Shown here one piece after another: positions 5,304-20,952 of a DNA stretch of 21,375 nt. Numbering within the stretch: the first letter of the stretch is position 1; each line of letters opens with the position of its first letter. Under the pieces are notes generated by a model, which saw only the letters and a program-made list of their open reading frames with translations, ran no database searches and was not told the origin of the DNA. A program made the position numbers and the translations under genes. Source of the DNA: a virus; the IMG/VR virus record IMGVR_UViG_3300006128_000073, positions 1 to 21,375 of that record. One strand, 5' to 3'.

Positions 5304-5586
5304 GTAACATCCTTATTAATCCGATTGTATCAATGCTTACAAGCAAGAGGTAATTAGCCAACATGCCAAATGATTTCCTAGTGTAACTAGCCCAGCAGTA
5401 CATACTGCAACCAGTAATCCAAATAGGGTACATAGTAAGTAGGGGTGGATTGGGAACTGTGAAAGCCATTGTGATTGAACAACCCACACTAATAGCCCAA
5501 GCAAGCAGCTCGACAACAAAACGAAACCGATTACTAGCATAATCTTCCTTTATCCAAATAAAAATGCCTGTTAAAATATCATTCAT
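5293..5586 (-). CDS. Membrane protein, about three transmembrane segments
   Basis: A 97-aa protein. An N-terminal amphipathic part (WIKEDYASNRFRF) precedes hydrophobic segments at about residues 23-42, 48-66 and 74-92. Conserved-looking features are N/RFRF, a proline-rich loop (VPNPPLL) and KSFGMLANY. I recall similar proteins in marine phages without a known function. It is the first gene after the promoter at 5593-5621. Confidence 0.74.
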   Translation of the reverse strand: MNDILTGIFIWIKEDYASNRFRFVVELLAWAISVGCSITMAFTVPNPPLLTMYPIWITGCSMYCWASYTRKSFGMLANYLLLVSIDTIGLIRMLHAN

Positions 5587-5592
5587 GTTGAT

Positions 5593-5621
5593 ATTATATA
5601 ACAGGTATTGTTTAAAGTCAA
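5593..5621 (-). promoter_or_regulatory. Early sigma70 promoter
   Basis: TTGACT (5616-5621) and TATAAT (5593-5598) with a 17-bp spacer on the minus strand. It is placed 7 nt ahead of the ATG of 5293-5586, so this mRNA also has almost no leader. Confidence 0.82.
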
Positions 5622-5763: not shown

Positions 5764-6087
5764 TTAGTTTGGTACCAATACTAATTGATACTGTCCGGTC
5801 TGTGGATTAACCATTTGTTGATAATGATATCCTACTGGAGGAGGAGCATATTGCACGTTTGGTTGTTGCACAACGATCGGTGCTTGTTGAACCACAATAG
5901 GTTGTTGCTCTACTACAACAGGGGGCTTGGCTAGTTCATATCCAATCACTCCACCGATAAGTGCAGGAGCTATCCATCCACCGCCACCATAATAACCATG
6001 TGGATGATAATATCCACCACGGTAGCAACAGGGTTCTGCTGATGCTACACCTGACAATAATGCTATCGCTAATATAATTTTTTTCAT
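5764..6087 (-). CDS. Exported Tyr/Gly/Gln-rich low-complexity protein
   Basis: I chose the ATG at 6087 because GGAG precedes it and it gives a clean signal peptide (MKKIILAIALLSGVASA). The mature part has a Gly/Tyr/His-rich stretch with CC, then a short hydrophobic patch (PALIGGVIGYELAKPP), then repeats of VVVQQ-P-type units and a Y-P-rich tail. It looks like bacterial glycine-zipper or YXXX-type envelope proteins. It may act at the host envelope. The function is unknown. Confidence 0.75.
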   Translation of the reverse strand: MKKIILAIALLSGVASAEPCCYRGGYYHPHGYYGGGGWIAPALIGGVIGYELAKPPVVVEQQPIVVQQAPIVVQQPNVQYAPPPVGYHYQQMVNPQTGQYQLVLVPN

Positions 6088-6091
6088 AATG

Positions 6092-6586
6092 TTACTCCTT
6101 ATTTTCAATAAAAGTTTGTAGTACTTCTTCTATGAATTTATTTATCGTAATGTCACGCTCATGTGCACCTCTGGCTATTGCAAGCAAGGTTTCGTCATCT
6201 AAAGTTAATTCCATTTCAACTCTAGTATCAAATGTTAATCCATGAAATATAGCAGTTGCTTTTTCTATAATATCATTCTCTGTCTCTAAGTCAAAGTATA
6301 GTACATTGTCGTATGCTACTGCGGGATTAATACCCTTATCTTTAGCCTCTTGATAGTAACCATCTATGTAACCAGGATCTATCCAGCGATAAGAATTATT
6401 TTTATTCAGTTTTGAATCGGTGGTAATTTCGTAAACTGTTTGGTCACTGGTATTAAATACAACCGACACATCAGCATGTTTACTTTCAAAGTTTAAAAAT
6501 CTAGCATTAGGATAGCAGAACCATTGGTACTCAGAACCACCAGTGATTTTATAATTTAGTTTTCCTACGATGTCGCTTAGGTGCAT
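6092..6586 (-). CDS. Phage protein with Arc-like C-terminal segment
   Basis: A 164-aa protein, starting MHLSDIVGKLN after GGAGAAAAG. The N-terminal half contains GGSEYQWFCYPNARFLNFE and SVVFNTSDQTVYEITT, suggesting a beta-rich domain. The last 40 residues (RVEMELTLDDETLLAIARG, then TINKFIEEVLQTFIE) resemble a ribbon-helix-helix of the Arc/MetJ type. It may bind DNA. It overlaps 6549-6794 by 38 nt. Confidence 0.72.
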   Translation of the reverse strand: MHLSDIVGKLNYKITGGSEYQWFCYPNARFLNFESKHADVSVVFNTSDQTVYEITTDSKLNKNNSYRWIDPGYIDGYYQEAKDKGINPAVAYDNVLYFDLETENDIIEKATAIFHGLTFDTRVEMELTLDDETLLAIARGAHERDITINKFIEEVLQTFIENKE

Positions 6587-8837: not shown

Positions 8838-9152
8838 TTATTTAAAAGTATTCAATAAAGGATTGAATTCTTTAATTAATTGTGTCTCTCTTGCATGACA
8901 CTCACGCTTACCTCTTACAACTTCAACTAGACCATAAGTAAAATTACTTACACCGTAATTGCGAATACTTTCGCACAATCCCCAACTTTTTGTTTCTGCA
9001 AACGCTCTTTGGATATGTTTGCGTACTCTAATGTAAAGGGCTTGTTTTACAGTTTTGCTAATTGCAGTAATACCGATATACTGTTCACCTGTAACAATAT
9101 TAGTGATTACATAAATTGCATGATTTCTATCTGACCGCTTTTTTCTACTCAT
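8838..9152 (-). CDS. GIY-YIG family endonuclease
   Basis: A 104-aa protein. The GIY-YIG core is seen as AIYVITNIVTGEQYIGIT near residues 12-29, with R/K residues in VRKHIQRA and the likely catalytic glutamate in ETQLIKEFNP. These small nucleases in T4-like phages are often free-standing homing enzymes, or act in DNA processing. It is not inside an intron here. The ATG lies 6 nt after the -10 box, so the mRNA is probably leaderless. Confidence 0.82.
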   Translation of the reverse strand: MSRKKRSDRNHAIYVITNIVTGEQYIGITAISKTVKQALYIRVRKHIQRAFAETKSWGLCESIRNYGVSNFTYGLVEVVRGKRECHARETQLIKEFNPLLNTFK

Positions 9153-13906: not shown

Positions 13907-15394
13907 CTAAATATTCTTCATCATATTTATGAATACTTTATGGTCAATTGTATTTTTTTCGTTTTGTAATTTAATTCTGTTAATCTCAAAAGATTCTTGT
14001 TTGGCAATGTCTAAGGCATTACGTTTAGCTAATGCTTGATAGTACGTTGCAGGGTCAAATTTCTGTAGACCCCACGCTATTGTTGTAAAGTTTACATGTC
14101 CAAATGTAGTTCCATTACCATTATCCATAAATGAATGTTGGTTTAGTATATCTGTTTTTGATTTCTCATCTAACCATTTTACTTCATCAGGCGTACTGTT
14201 AGTGATGTATTTCCAAAACTCTGAATCTGTTCTTCCTGTGGTATAACAATATCTTAAGTAAAGATAGATATTATCATAAAACTTACTCATATGGTTATTG
14301 TATTTTACAATATCATAATCATAAACATTAAAGTTATACACTTGTAAGAAATGACCTATTTGATATACCGTATGATGTATATTAGTTGCCTCTAATGGTT
14401 CTGCAAATCCACTACATAAACCTATTGATATACAATTACCAACCCATTGCTTACCCCAGAATCCGCTTTTAAAGTTCAATACTTTACTAGTGTTAACTAA
14501 ATCAGATTTATATCTATCTTTAACAAAGGTTGAGAATTTACTAAATGCTTCATCATCACTTGTGAACTGACTTGAGTATAAATATCCTGCTCCCCAACGA
14601 TTGCTTAATGGAACTTGTAATATCCATCCATCACTACTTGCCTCTGATGTAGTATATGGTGGTTGCTTTTCAAATTCATACATTATTGGATTAGGGATAC
14701 AACTATCAATAGGCAACCAATCTGTTCTATCTACCCAATTAGTTCCTAAATGTTTGAATAACACACTAGCAAATCCACTAGCATCAATATAAAAATCTGC
14801 ACTTAAGTTGCCGTTTTTCTCTAACACAACATAATCAATATATTCACTAGAACCTTTTTTAACTACATCTAATACAACATCATCAATGATAGTTAGATCA
14901 TCACGGAACTTGTTTAGTATATACTGACTAGTTATTGTTGCATCAATATGCAATGATTGGCTCTTGGAACGTTTTGTAGGTACTTTGCAGTCTTCATAAT
15001 AATTTTTACCAAACATTACATTATAATTGTAATCTGTATAACTACTAGTTGCCATATCATATGCAACCCCATAGTTCATTGGATTTTGCATTAAATCTGA
15101 TTCAAAAAATCCGTGATAAAAATATTTACCATCGTTTAACCAATTTTTGAATTGCAATCCTAATTTAATTGTAGCATTACAATGCTTAATCAATTCTTCT
15201 GTAGACACACCCACATAATCTAAGTAGTCGTAAATTTTCGGAGTAAGACTTTCTCCTACACCTATGCCTGGGTTTCTATGATCGTATACTAACACGACCT
15301 CAACATTATCACCCCAGTATCTTTTGACATAGGTAGATGCAATGACTCCTGCAAATCCACCACCTACTACAACTATTTTATGTTTGTTTGTCAT
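13907..15394 (-). CDS. Tryptophan-halogenase-like flavoprotein (long form)
   Basis: A 495-aa FAD-dependent protein of the PrnA/RebH family. It has the GGGFAGVIAS dinucleotide motif near residues 11-20, GVGESLTP (45-52; GxGEATIP in the family), and K77 in CNATIKLGLQF, at the position of the catalytic lysine. EPLEATNIHH lies at 332-341. The W-x-W-x-I-P signature is replaced by GWILQVP (256-262), so true halogenation of tryptophan is uncertain. Such genes are known in marine T4-like phages. Translation starts 6 nt after the CCA of tRNA-Ser with no ribosome site. Confidence 0.85.
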   Translation of the reverse strand: MTNKHKIVVVGGGFAGVIASTYVKRYWGDNVEVVLVYDHRNPGIGVGESLTPKIYDYLDYVGVSTEELIKHCNATIKLGLQFKNWLNDGKYFYHGFFESDLMQNPMNYGVAYDMATSSYTDYNYNVMFGKNYYEDCKVPTKRSKSQSLHIDATITSQYILNKFRDDLTIIDDVVLDVVKKGSSEYIDYVVLEKNGNLSADFYIDASGFASVLFKHLGTNWVDRTDWLPIDSCIPNPIMYEFEKQPPYTTSEASSDGWILQVPLSNRWGAGYLYSSQFTSDDEAFSKFSTFVKDRYKSDLVNTSKVLNFKSGFWGKQWVGNCISIGLCSGFAEPLEATNIHHTVYQIGHFLQVYNFNVYDYDIVKYNNHMSKFYDNIYLYLRYCYTTGRTDSEFWKYITNSTPDEVKWLDEKSKTDILNQHSFMDNGNGTTFGHVNFTTIAWGLQKFDPATYYQALAKRNALDIAKQESFEINRIKLQNEKNTIDHKVFINMMKNI

Positions 15395-16930: not shown

Positions 16931-17228
16931 TGGTGCGAGTGCCCGGAATCGAACCGGGACGCCATTTTGGGGCGAGAGATTTTCTTACCACTATAGTTTT
17001 CACTACCTTTATAGTTTGTGGTCTGGACTATACCTTAACCATTGCTATCGCTTTAGGTTCCCGCCGTCTAGTCTCTACACGTTCAAAGATATTTCTATCT
17101 AGGCTTCGCTCGGTATTAGCATTTTACAGCCTTCACCGAATTTGACGGGTTCTACTCCAATCGTTTCCAATTGGGCACTCAAATTTTACTTCCAAGTCTC
17201 TTGTGTCTACCTATTTCACCACACTCGC
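16931..17228 (-). tRNA. tRNA-Leu(UAA), split by a group I intron
   Basis: Exon 1 is 17194-17228 and exon 2 is 16931-16983. When joined, the anticodon stem AGAGA/TCTCT closes the loop CTTAAAA (anticodon TAA). Acceptor GCGAGTG / CACTCGC, a long variable arm (CGCC / GGCG) and T arm CCCGG/CCGGG are intact, and CCA is encoded. The interruption falls between U34 and A35, the position of the ancient cyanobacterial and plastid tRNA-Leu(UAA) intron. Confidence 0.92.
16984..17193 (-). other. Group I intron (210 nt, no ORF) in tRNA-Leu(UAA)
   Basis: The intron shows the group I core: P3 (CCGTC / GACGG), the P4-side element GTCAAATTCGGTGAA, the R segment GTGTAGAGACTAGACGG and the S segment AAGGTATAGTCC, which form P7 (GACTA / TAGTC). 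The last intron base is G (omega G). For P1, ACTT at the exon end can pair with GAGT in the intron, giving the usual U-G wobble at the splice site. The core resembles the Azoarcus and Anabaena tRNA introns (IC3-like). It appears self-splicing by structure; this is inferred. Confidence 0.92.
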
Positions 17229-19782: not shown

Positions 19783-20952
19783 TTATTCTCTTAATCTATC
19801 TACCTTTTCATATAGACCTAAATCATTAAAATTCTGCATGAAACTATAAACACCCCAACTACCATAACCTCTATTATGACCATCTGTTCTTATCTTGTAA
19901 GGGTCTTGTTTAGACATTTCAATTATTTCGTTAAACCCTGGACTTGACTTAAGTGATTCTCTAATTCTTTTTTCTGCACGTTCACCTGCAAAGTCCCAAA
20001 ATTTTGTTTTATACTTACTACCAGCAAGATAGTGCAACATAATCATTGTTTCTACTTCAACATGCGTATTCTCATATGCCATGTCAATAGCCTCAATTGG
20101 AAGATTACCAAACCAGTAATCATACGCATATCTATTAATCCAACCCATTGTACCAATACTTGTTGCTTCCATTGGCTCTAAAAAGAAACTTGCATTACCA
20201 TTGTATACAACTCTATCTACAAAATTCTTTTTGCGATAATAATTCTTAAAACTAAATGTGTTTGTATCATTACTTGGAGTTAAATTGTATTGTGCAAAAA
20301 CTTCTTTTACATCTTCTTTAACTTCATCCAATGATGTTATTGTATTGTTATACAAGTAACCAATGCTACATCTATTTTGAAGTGGTATACCAAATACCCA
20401 TCCCCAAGGTCTAGCAAGTGTTAGTGTATATTGAAATCTTGCCTGTTCCCAATAACATTGTGTAACGTGTACTGAGTTAACTGGAATTGTTTCTAGCATT
20501 TTAAATGGAGTATAGTCAGTTGGTTTACCTGTACAATCCATAATAAAATCTGCATCAATTTTACTGTAATCTGTTTCGTCAGTCTCAACCATTTTATACT
20601 TACTACTTAACTGATCCAATATGTAGTCTTGTAATTTGTTTGCGTTAAAATGCATTGATACTGCAGGAGTTTTAAAGTTATGATGATAGCCTTTACCATC
20701 ACCCCATCCTTCTTTATATATACCTGTCTTTAGTGACCCATCTACAAATCGTAGATCGCTGTACGCAAATCCTGTATTCTCAAACAATGCTTGAGGAAAT
20801 GCGCTATTAGTACCTTCACCTACTGTTGTTGGTGGAATAGCTGGATTGTGATGTAATTCAAATTCACATTGGTCACTTACAAATTGTGTGAAGTGGGTAA
20901 GAGCAAATGCACCAGCACTACCTTTACCAAGTATAACCATTTTCTTTTTCAT
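19783..20952 (-). CDS. Tryptophan-halogenase-like flavoprotein (short form)
   Basis: A 389-aa FAD protein of the same superfamily as 13907-15394 but much diverged. It has ILGKGSAGAFAL (7-18), VGEGTNS (44-50), K75 in GSLKTGIYKEGW as the likely catalytic lysine, and EPMEATSIG (259-267). W-G-W-V-F-G-I-P (183-190) is a stretched form of the W-x-W-x-I-P signature, so monooxygenation is less likely than in standard flavin monooxygenases, but the substrate is unknown. It is about 110 residues shorter than the other copy. A late-like ATTAAATA lies 2 nt before the ATG. Confidence 0.82.
   Translation of the reverse strand: MKKKMVILGKGSAGAFALTHFTQFVSDQCEFELHHNPAIPPTTVGEGTNSAFPQALFENTGFAYSDLRFVDGSLKTGIYKEGWGDGKGYHHNFKTPAVSMHFNANKLQDYILDQLSSKYKMVETDETDYSKIDADFIMDCTGKPTDYTPFKMLETIPVNSVHVTQCYWEQARFQYTLTLARPWGWVFGIPLQNRCSIGYLYNNTITSLDEVKEDVKEVFAQYNLTPSNDTNTFSFKNYYRKKNFVDRVVYNGNASFFLEPMEATSIGTMGWINRYAYDYWFGNLPIEAIDMAYENTHVEVETMIMLHYLAGSKYKTKFWDFAGERAEKRIRESLKSSPGFNEIIEMSKQDPYKIRTDGHNRGYGSWGVYSFMQNFNDLGLYEKVDRLRE

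Follow-up and report, generated by a model that had tools for sequence, protein, structure and literature searches.

A phage tRNA-Leu(UAA) gene is interrupted by a group I intron

The IMG/VR virus record IMGVR_UViG_3300006128_000073 (21,375 bp, 34% G+C; this whole stretch is referred to as the window) carries on its minus strand a phage-borne tRNA-Leu(UAA) gene that is interrupted by a real group I intron. The intron of tRNA-Leu(UAA) is a textbook case in the question of ancient versus mobile introns, and the window copy is one member of a widespread, apparently undescribed phage set of this known kind of ribozyme. In its intron mode, ARAGORN reports tRNA-Leu(taa) at c[16931,17228] and places an intron of 210 nt (gactt^...^aaaat) between U34 and A35, and the initial annotation, made from the letters alone, had the coordinates, the intron length, the insertion site and the terminal G all correct. 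The spliced exons amount to 88 nt and give a complete, perfect cloverleaf with CCA encoded at its end. The ordinary mode of the same program missed this gene in the window and called eight other tRNAs.

The Rfam group I model RF00028 aligns to the window at 17197..17003 (minus strand), covering its 253 positions in full at 43.3 bits (E 8.4e-10), which together with covariation of the fold bears out the original identification as group I. The covariance-model check that had been proposed for it gave a full-length match but a score under the Rfam gathering score of 50, which is a search threshold and no biological feature; because of this shortfall the default Rfam scan of the window is silent on the intron, a silence that is no proof of absence. 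The intron of a relative in another phage (L078) scores 74.5 bits. Our model R1 gives the window intron 248 bits, a value that is high by construction since the window sequence is in alignment A1, described below. As also stated at the outset, the intron contains no open reading frame (ORF), homing or other.

Covariation supports the complete intron fold

Alignment A1 comprises 49 phage introns at the U34/A35 site of tRNA-Leu(UAA), with a mean column identity of 75%. The tested fold (P1, P2, P3, P4, P5, P6, P6a, P7, P8, P9 and P9.1) was drawn from the window sequence, in which every helix pairs, and then counted on A1. There, 97.9% of cells are paired, both sides change in 30 of the 51 pairs, and the number of double-changed cells reaches 343, whereas sliding the partners by 1-3 columns leaves 26-43 such cells and shuffling gives 92. 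Drawing the fold from one member inflates the percentage paired, but not the count of compensatory changes to this extent, and alignment covariation supports the entire P1-P9.1 fold, including the P3, P4 and P7 elements first recognized from the letters alone. The P3/P7 pseudoknot and the P3-P8 and P4-P6 domains are present, with both-side changes in four pairs of P3, one of P7 and four of P8. P3 and P8 occur with many pair types, and one pair of P7, the helix that we take to serve the guanosine site as in group I introns generally, is swapped from A-U to U-A in six A1 sequences. The splice-site U.G in P1 and the terminal guanosine are invariant in A1, and all 90 genes recovered by a strict junction finder end their introns in G, which the finder itself demands. 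A candidate P10 is 93.9% paired; its sequences are invariant, the slid controls are nearly equal, and it is without statistical support because nothing varies there (Table 1).

Introns of subgroup IC3 are small, lack P2.1, P5abc and P7.1-7.2, and have GAAA L2 and L9 loops that dock to P8 and P5. The size, helix set and GAAA loops of the window intron, as read from its sequence, make a small, IC3-like tRNA type the most likely assignment. Degeneration of the intron into a splicing-dead remnant, with the tRNA gene a pseudogene, is very unlikely: no HNH gene accompanies the window intron, and expression and splicing are predicted properties, but all helices pair, the U.G and terminal G are retained, the exons form an intact cloverleaf with CCA, and a 96% identical copy is carried by another phage.

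Table 1. Features of the split tRNA-Leu(UAA) gene in the window
Feature	Position	Strand	Basis
Whole tRNA-Leu(UAA) gene, exons and intron, CCA encoded	16931..17228	-	ARAGORN intron mode; cloverleaf of spliced form
5' exon, last bases C32 U33 U34	17194..17228	-	ARAGORN intron mode
Group I intron, 210 nt	16984..17193	-	RF00028 match; covariation in A1; R1 248 bits (by construction)
3' exon, first bases A35 A36 A37 A38	16931..16983	-	ARAGORN intron mode
P1 3' strand, internal guide GAGU; partner exon ACUU 17194-17197, splice-site U.G	17177..17180	-	U.G in 49/49
UUU beside guide, candidate P10 with 3' exon AAA (16981-16983)	17181..17183	-	93.9% paired, no covariation
P2 hairpin, GAAA loop	17157..17174	-	Both-side changes in 7/7 pairs
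P3 5' strand (3' strand 17060-17065)	17144..17149	-	100% paired; both-side changes in 4/6 pairs
P4-P5 (P4 17135-17139 with 17110-17114; P5 17129-17131 with 17118-17120)	17110..17139	-	A1 pair counts
P6 (17107-17109 with 17079-17081) and P6a hairpin (17096-17100 with 17087-17091, GAAA loop)	17079..17109	-	A1 pair counts
P7 5' strand (3' strand 17026-17030)	17069..17073	-	99.6% paired
P8	17037..17059	-	100% paired; both-side changes in 4/4 pairs
P9 (17018-17022 with 16987-16991) and P9.1, GAAA loop (17002-17005 with 16994-16997)	16987..17022	-	A1 pair counts
Terminal guanosine (omega G)	16984..16984	-	Invariant in A1; 90/90 strict-finder genes (G required by finder)

The same split gene is found in many phages

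This copy is not an isolated case: a tRNA-Leu(UAA) intron at U34/A35 occurs in at least 89 viral records, with at least 71 distinct introns by the strict junction finder. The finder was applied to IMG/VR pattern scans seeded with the window's own wording, and phage prevalence is not measurable from these scans because they began from that wording. The finder and model R1 were used because ARAGORN intron mode, when run on metagenome loci, returned many spurious long "introns" and displaced junctions; its intron calls for tRNA-Tyr(AUA), tRNA-Ser(AGA) and tRNA-Phe were rejected as mostly mis-registered tRNA-Leu(UAA) genes on the evidence of their CTT/AAAA junctions. BLAST relatives over most of the gene occur in a 735-kb phage and in the cultured Agrobacterium phage Atu_ph07; ARAGORN calls both, and the gene of LR756511 (595 kb), as tRNA-Leu(UAA). 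The phages with the split gene include LR756501. In the Atu_ph07 record, the intron-bearing locus lacks a tRNA annotation. Introns likewise interrupt phage tRNAs of other anticodons (ARAGORN intron mode; model R1). By these results, introns in phage tRNA genes are common but have been overlooked, and because intron-bearing genes escape the standard tools, lists of phage tRNAs are incomplete.

Two further loci are recorded here as separate observations. The viral contig L067 has three tRNAs with group I introns (135-352, 5384-5606 and 5874-6099), by sequence Thr, Leu and a CAU-anticodon tRNA. The cultured Gordonia phage Daredevil (L659:1378-1689; NC_048021.1) has, near its integrase gene, a tRNA-Lys that is missing from the annotation and is split by a group I intron of 238 nt; an annotated HNH endonuclease lies about 450 bp away.

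The window intron groups with phage introns rather than with canonical cyanobacterial introns

The comparison with host and other phage introns that had been proposed for the window intron was carried out as a quick maximum-likelihood tree of 224 columns, with long branches and with the Shimodaira-Hasegawa-like approximate likelihood-ratio test (SH-aLRT) as its only support measure, and it groups the window intron with phage introns. The nearest neighbor is the intron of the phage locus L050 (96% identity), and the surrounding clade holds 41 phage sequences, one cyanobacterial and one alphaproteobacterial sequence (95% support), a clustering that is partly due to how the phage sequences were found. 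The initial annotation held the core wording to be close to the Azoarcus tRNA intron; membership in that lineage would predict a position with tRNA-Ile(CAU) introns, and phage introns in tRNAs with a CAU anticodon (L017, L044, L056) fall elsewhere in the tree.

The link to the cyanobacterial tRNA-Leu intron drawn in the initial annotation stands for the insertion site, which is exactly the same, but not for the sequence: the 12 canonical cyanobacterial introns group by themselves (98%), without the window intron, and their 3' ends differ (GAGAATG). Descent of the window intron from the ancient cyanobacterial intron, carried by a cyanophage, would agree with the shared gene and site, with the one cyanobacterial copy (L629) that is placed among phage introns, and with the nearest named phages by protein, which are cyanophages, although ones too distant to point to a host (halogenase 28-36% identity, and under 36% over most of the protein). 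The separate clade and the differing ends have already weakened this explanation, and we regard it as improbable.

Introns at this site are found in many bacteria: among those drawn, model R1 has a match in 27 of 299 Pseudomonadota and in 32 of 98 Cyanobacteria (tRNA context checked for part of the matches). One of them, on a chromosome contig of a marine alphaproteobacterium (L351) with purB-, map- and rpsD-like neighbors by our reading of the ORFs, pairs in the tree with the intron of phage L078 (99% SH-aLRT), whose tRNA adjoins a T7-type terminase gene. Because these two tRNA-Leu genes are 91% identical across exons as well as intron, they point to phage-host exchange in one direction or the other; the comparison supports exchange with a chromosome for this pair of relatives and not for the window itself. 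The same pair, together with the bacterial matches, is what favors an origin by capture from a chromosome of a host: the intron-bearing tRNA-Leu gene would have been taken up whole, and the intron would not be mobile in phages. We consider such capture a less likely explanation, if the most serious of the alternatives, as a single phage-dominated clade holds nearly all phage introns, the introns of several pairs are far more similar than the exons around them, HNH genes occur in or beside introns, and no close bacterial relative of the window intron was found in these searches.

Other bacterial copies are of interest in their own right. The plasmid pCTX-M3 (L378:2496-2796; NC_004464.2 pCTX-M3 61824-62124) has near aac(3)-IId a complete tRNA-Leu(UAA) that a group I intron splits at this same position; the gene has no feature in the gene table used, and at least 80% of its length is present in 1,257 plasmid records, nearly all at 99% identity or more. 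Uncultured Bacilli (L336, L339, L349, L369 and L373) have introns of ~680 nt in tRNA-Leu(UAA), a length sufficient for an endonuclease gene.

Probable intron mobility and linked HNH genes

There are intronless viral tRNA-Leu(UAA) genes whose identity to the window exons reaches 92%, and in several pairs of intron-bearing genes the introns are far closer than the exons, as in L133 and L226 (96% and 69% identity, respectively). Between L050 and the window, the DNA shared in the available stretches is limited to the tRNA-Leu gene (92.5% over 322 nt). Among relatives of the window with the same neighboring genes, no intronless copy was found at the equivalent genome position because the tRNA arrays are too reshuffled.

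Introns of ~700 nt in relatives contain HNH ORFs, and in L050, L112 and others an HNH gene lies directly beside the intron-bearing tRNA-Leu. Of 141 loci, 37 have an HNH frame no more than 1.2 kb away, whereas the rest of the DNA in these loci, 990,700 bases, has one; when each distinct sequence is counted once, such a frame is nearby in 16 of 62 tRNA-Leu(UAA) genes with an intron and in 0 of 125 without (Fisher p 5e-9). The regular expression behind these counts was written after the intron-encoded proteins had been seen, and some loci end early. The free-standing proteins are named from the motif; they are 51% identical to an intron-encoded protein over the 53-residue motif region and share a second conserved stretch with it. 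This association suggests that collaborative homing may operate in the related phages.

A proposed path of splicing and spread

We consider it highly probable that the window gene holds a group I intron in a phage tRNA-Leu(UAA) that would splice and that belongs to a set spreading among phages, probably via homing. The fold of the RNA would pair the guide GAGU with ACUU of the exon, an external guanosine would attack after U34, and the freed U34 would then attack after the terminal G, joining the exons into an intact tRNA-Leu(UAA). Because splicing would restore the intact tRNA, insertion would be nearly neutral, and the phage would retain a tRNA for UUA, possibly also UUG, codons in its AT-rich genome. 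Spread between phages would take place at the single site U34/A35: in relatives, alleles of tRNA-Leu that lack the intron are probably cut by an HNH endonuclease encoded within or next to the intron-bearing tRNA, after which repair would copy the intron into the cut allele (homing or collaborative homing). The window copy, having no HNH gene with its intron, may be passively inherited or may have been moved by a partner in trans.

Several points count against this account. The RF00028 score lies below the gathering score; splicing, cutting, neutrality and homing, including cleavage of the intronless site, are steps that we infer; the p-value for the HNH association treats phages of shared descent as separate observations; Pfam gives no hit at E 0.001 for the free-standing HNH proteins; and the regular expression finds no HNH frame in the window.

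Genomic surroundings of the intron

The window has nine ordinary tRNAs amid many small ORFs, and nine of the ten proteins scanned match PHROG families, among them two halogenases, a phosphoesterase, a 2-oxoglutarate (2OG) oxygenase, a methyltransferase and two unknown phage families. Mis-binning of bacterial or plastid DNA is also very unlikely: the 21-kb fragment yielded no terminase or capsid gene and introns at the site are common in bacteria, but the PHROG matches, the tRNA-rich setting, the virus record itself and the same intron in cultured Atu_ph07 all argue for a phage. In this one fragment, two proteins resemble tryptophan halogenases (13907-15394 and 19783-20952). A free-standing GIY-YIG endonuclease (SegE-like) lies at 8838-9152, 8 kb from the intron, with no sign of a link.

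Relationship to known introns

The program tRNAscan-SE is not designed for group I intron detection. A 2026 report of "intronic sequences" in tRNAs of recoded jumbo phages used a tRNAscan-SE screen and gave no class (PMC13037316); "group I" is absent from its text, and its introns may be of the kind seen in the window. Introns are unmentioned in a study of huge phages with tRNAs called by tRNAscan-SE (PMC7162821), and tRNA occurs only in the references of an article on phage introns (PMC11878797). We found no description of group I introns in phage tRNA genes in the literature covered, subscription journals being largely outside that coverage. The expectation in the initial annotation that phage introns usually sit in protein genes fits a 2014 review, in which every phage intron seen up to then lay in a protein gene, although phages have many tRNA genes (PMC3984707), but phage tRNA introns are common in our searches. 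A large unannotated phage reservoir, in part accompanied by linked endonucleases and closely matched in one case by a host chromosome, supplies a vector for tRNA introns and makes the question of ancient versus mobile origin testable.

The intron described here also shares features with three other known systems. Phage introns in protein genes (td, nrdB, psbA, terminase, capsid) have in common with it a phage-borne group I core and endonuclease association, and a BLAST match links it to the capsid region of HTVC120P (76% over 164 nt); unlike these, it interrupts a tRNA gene. In collaborative homing, known from psbA of cyanophage S-PM2 and from T3-like phages, a free-standing endonuclease stands beside an ORF-less intron (PMC10448857, PMC3984707). 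The arrangement in L050, L112 and others is similar, with an HNH gene directly beside the intron-bearing tRNA and absent at intronless tRNA-Leu(UAA) loci, but here the target is a tRNA gene, the cleavage is predicted, and the window copy has no such neighbor. Finally, the bacterial tRNA introns (cyanobacterial tRNA-Leu(UAA) and tRNA-fMet, Azoarcus tRNA-Ile, Agrobacterium tRNA-Arg) are likewise small, free of homing endonuclease genes and located in the anticodon loop, with GAAA loops in P2 and P9.1 and, in the cyanobacterial tRNA-Leu(UAA) case, the same U34/A35 site. In contrast to them, the window intron is phage-borne and lies outside the main cyanobacterial tRNA-Leu clade, and some of its relatives carry an HNH gene within the intron or next to it.
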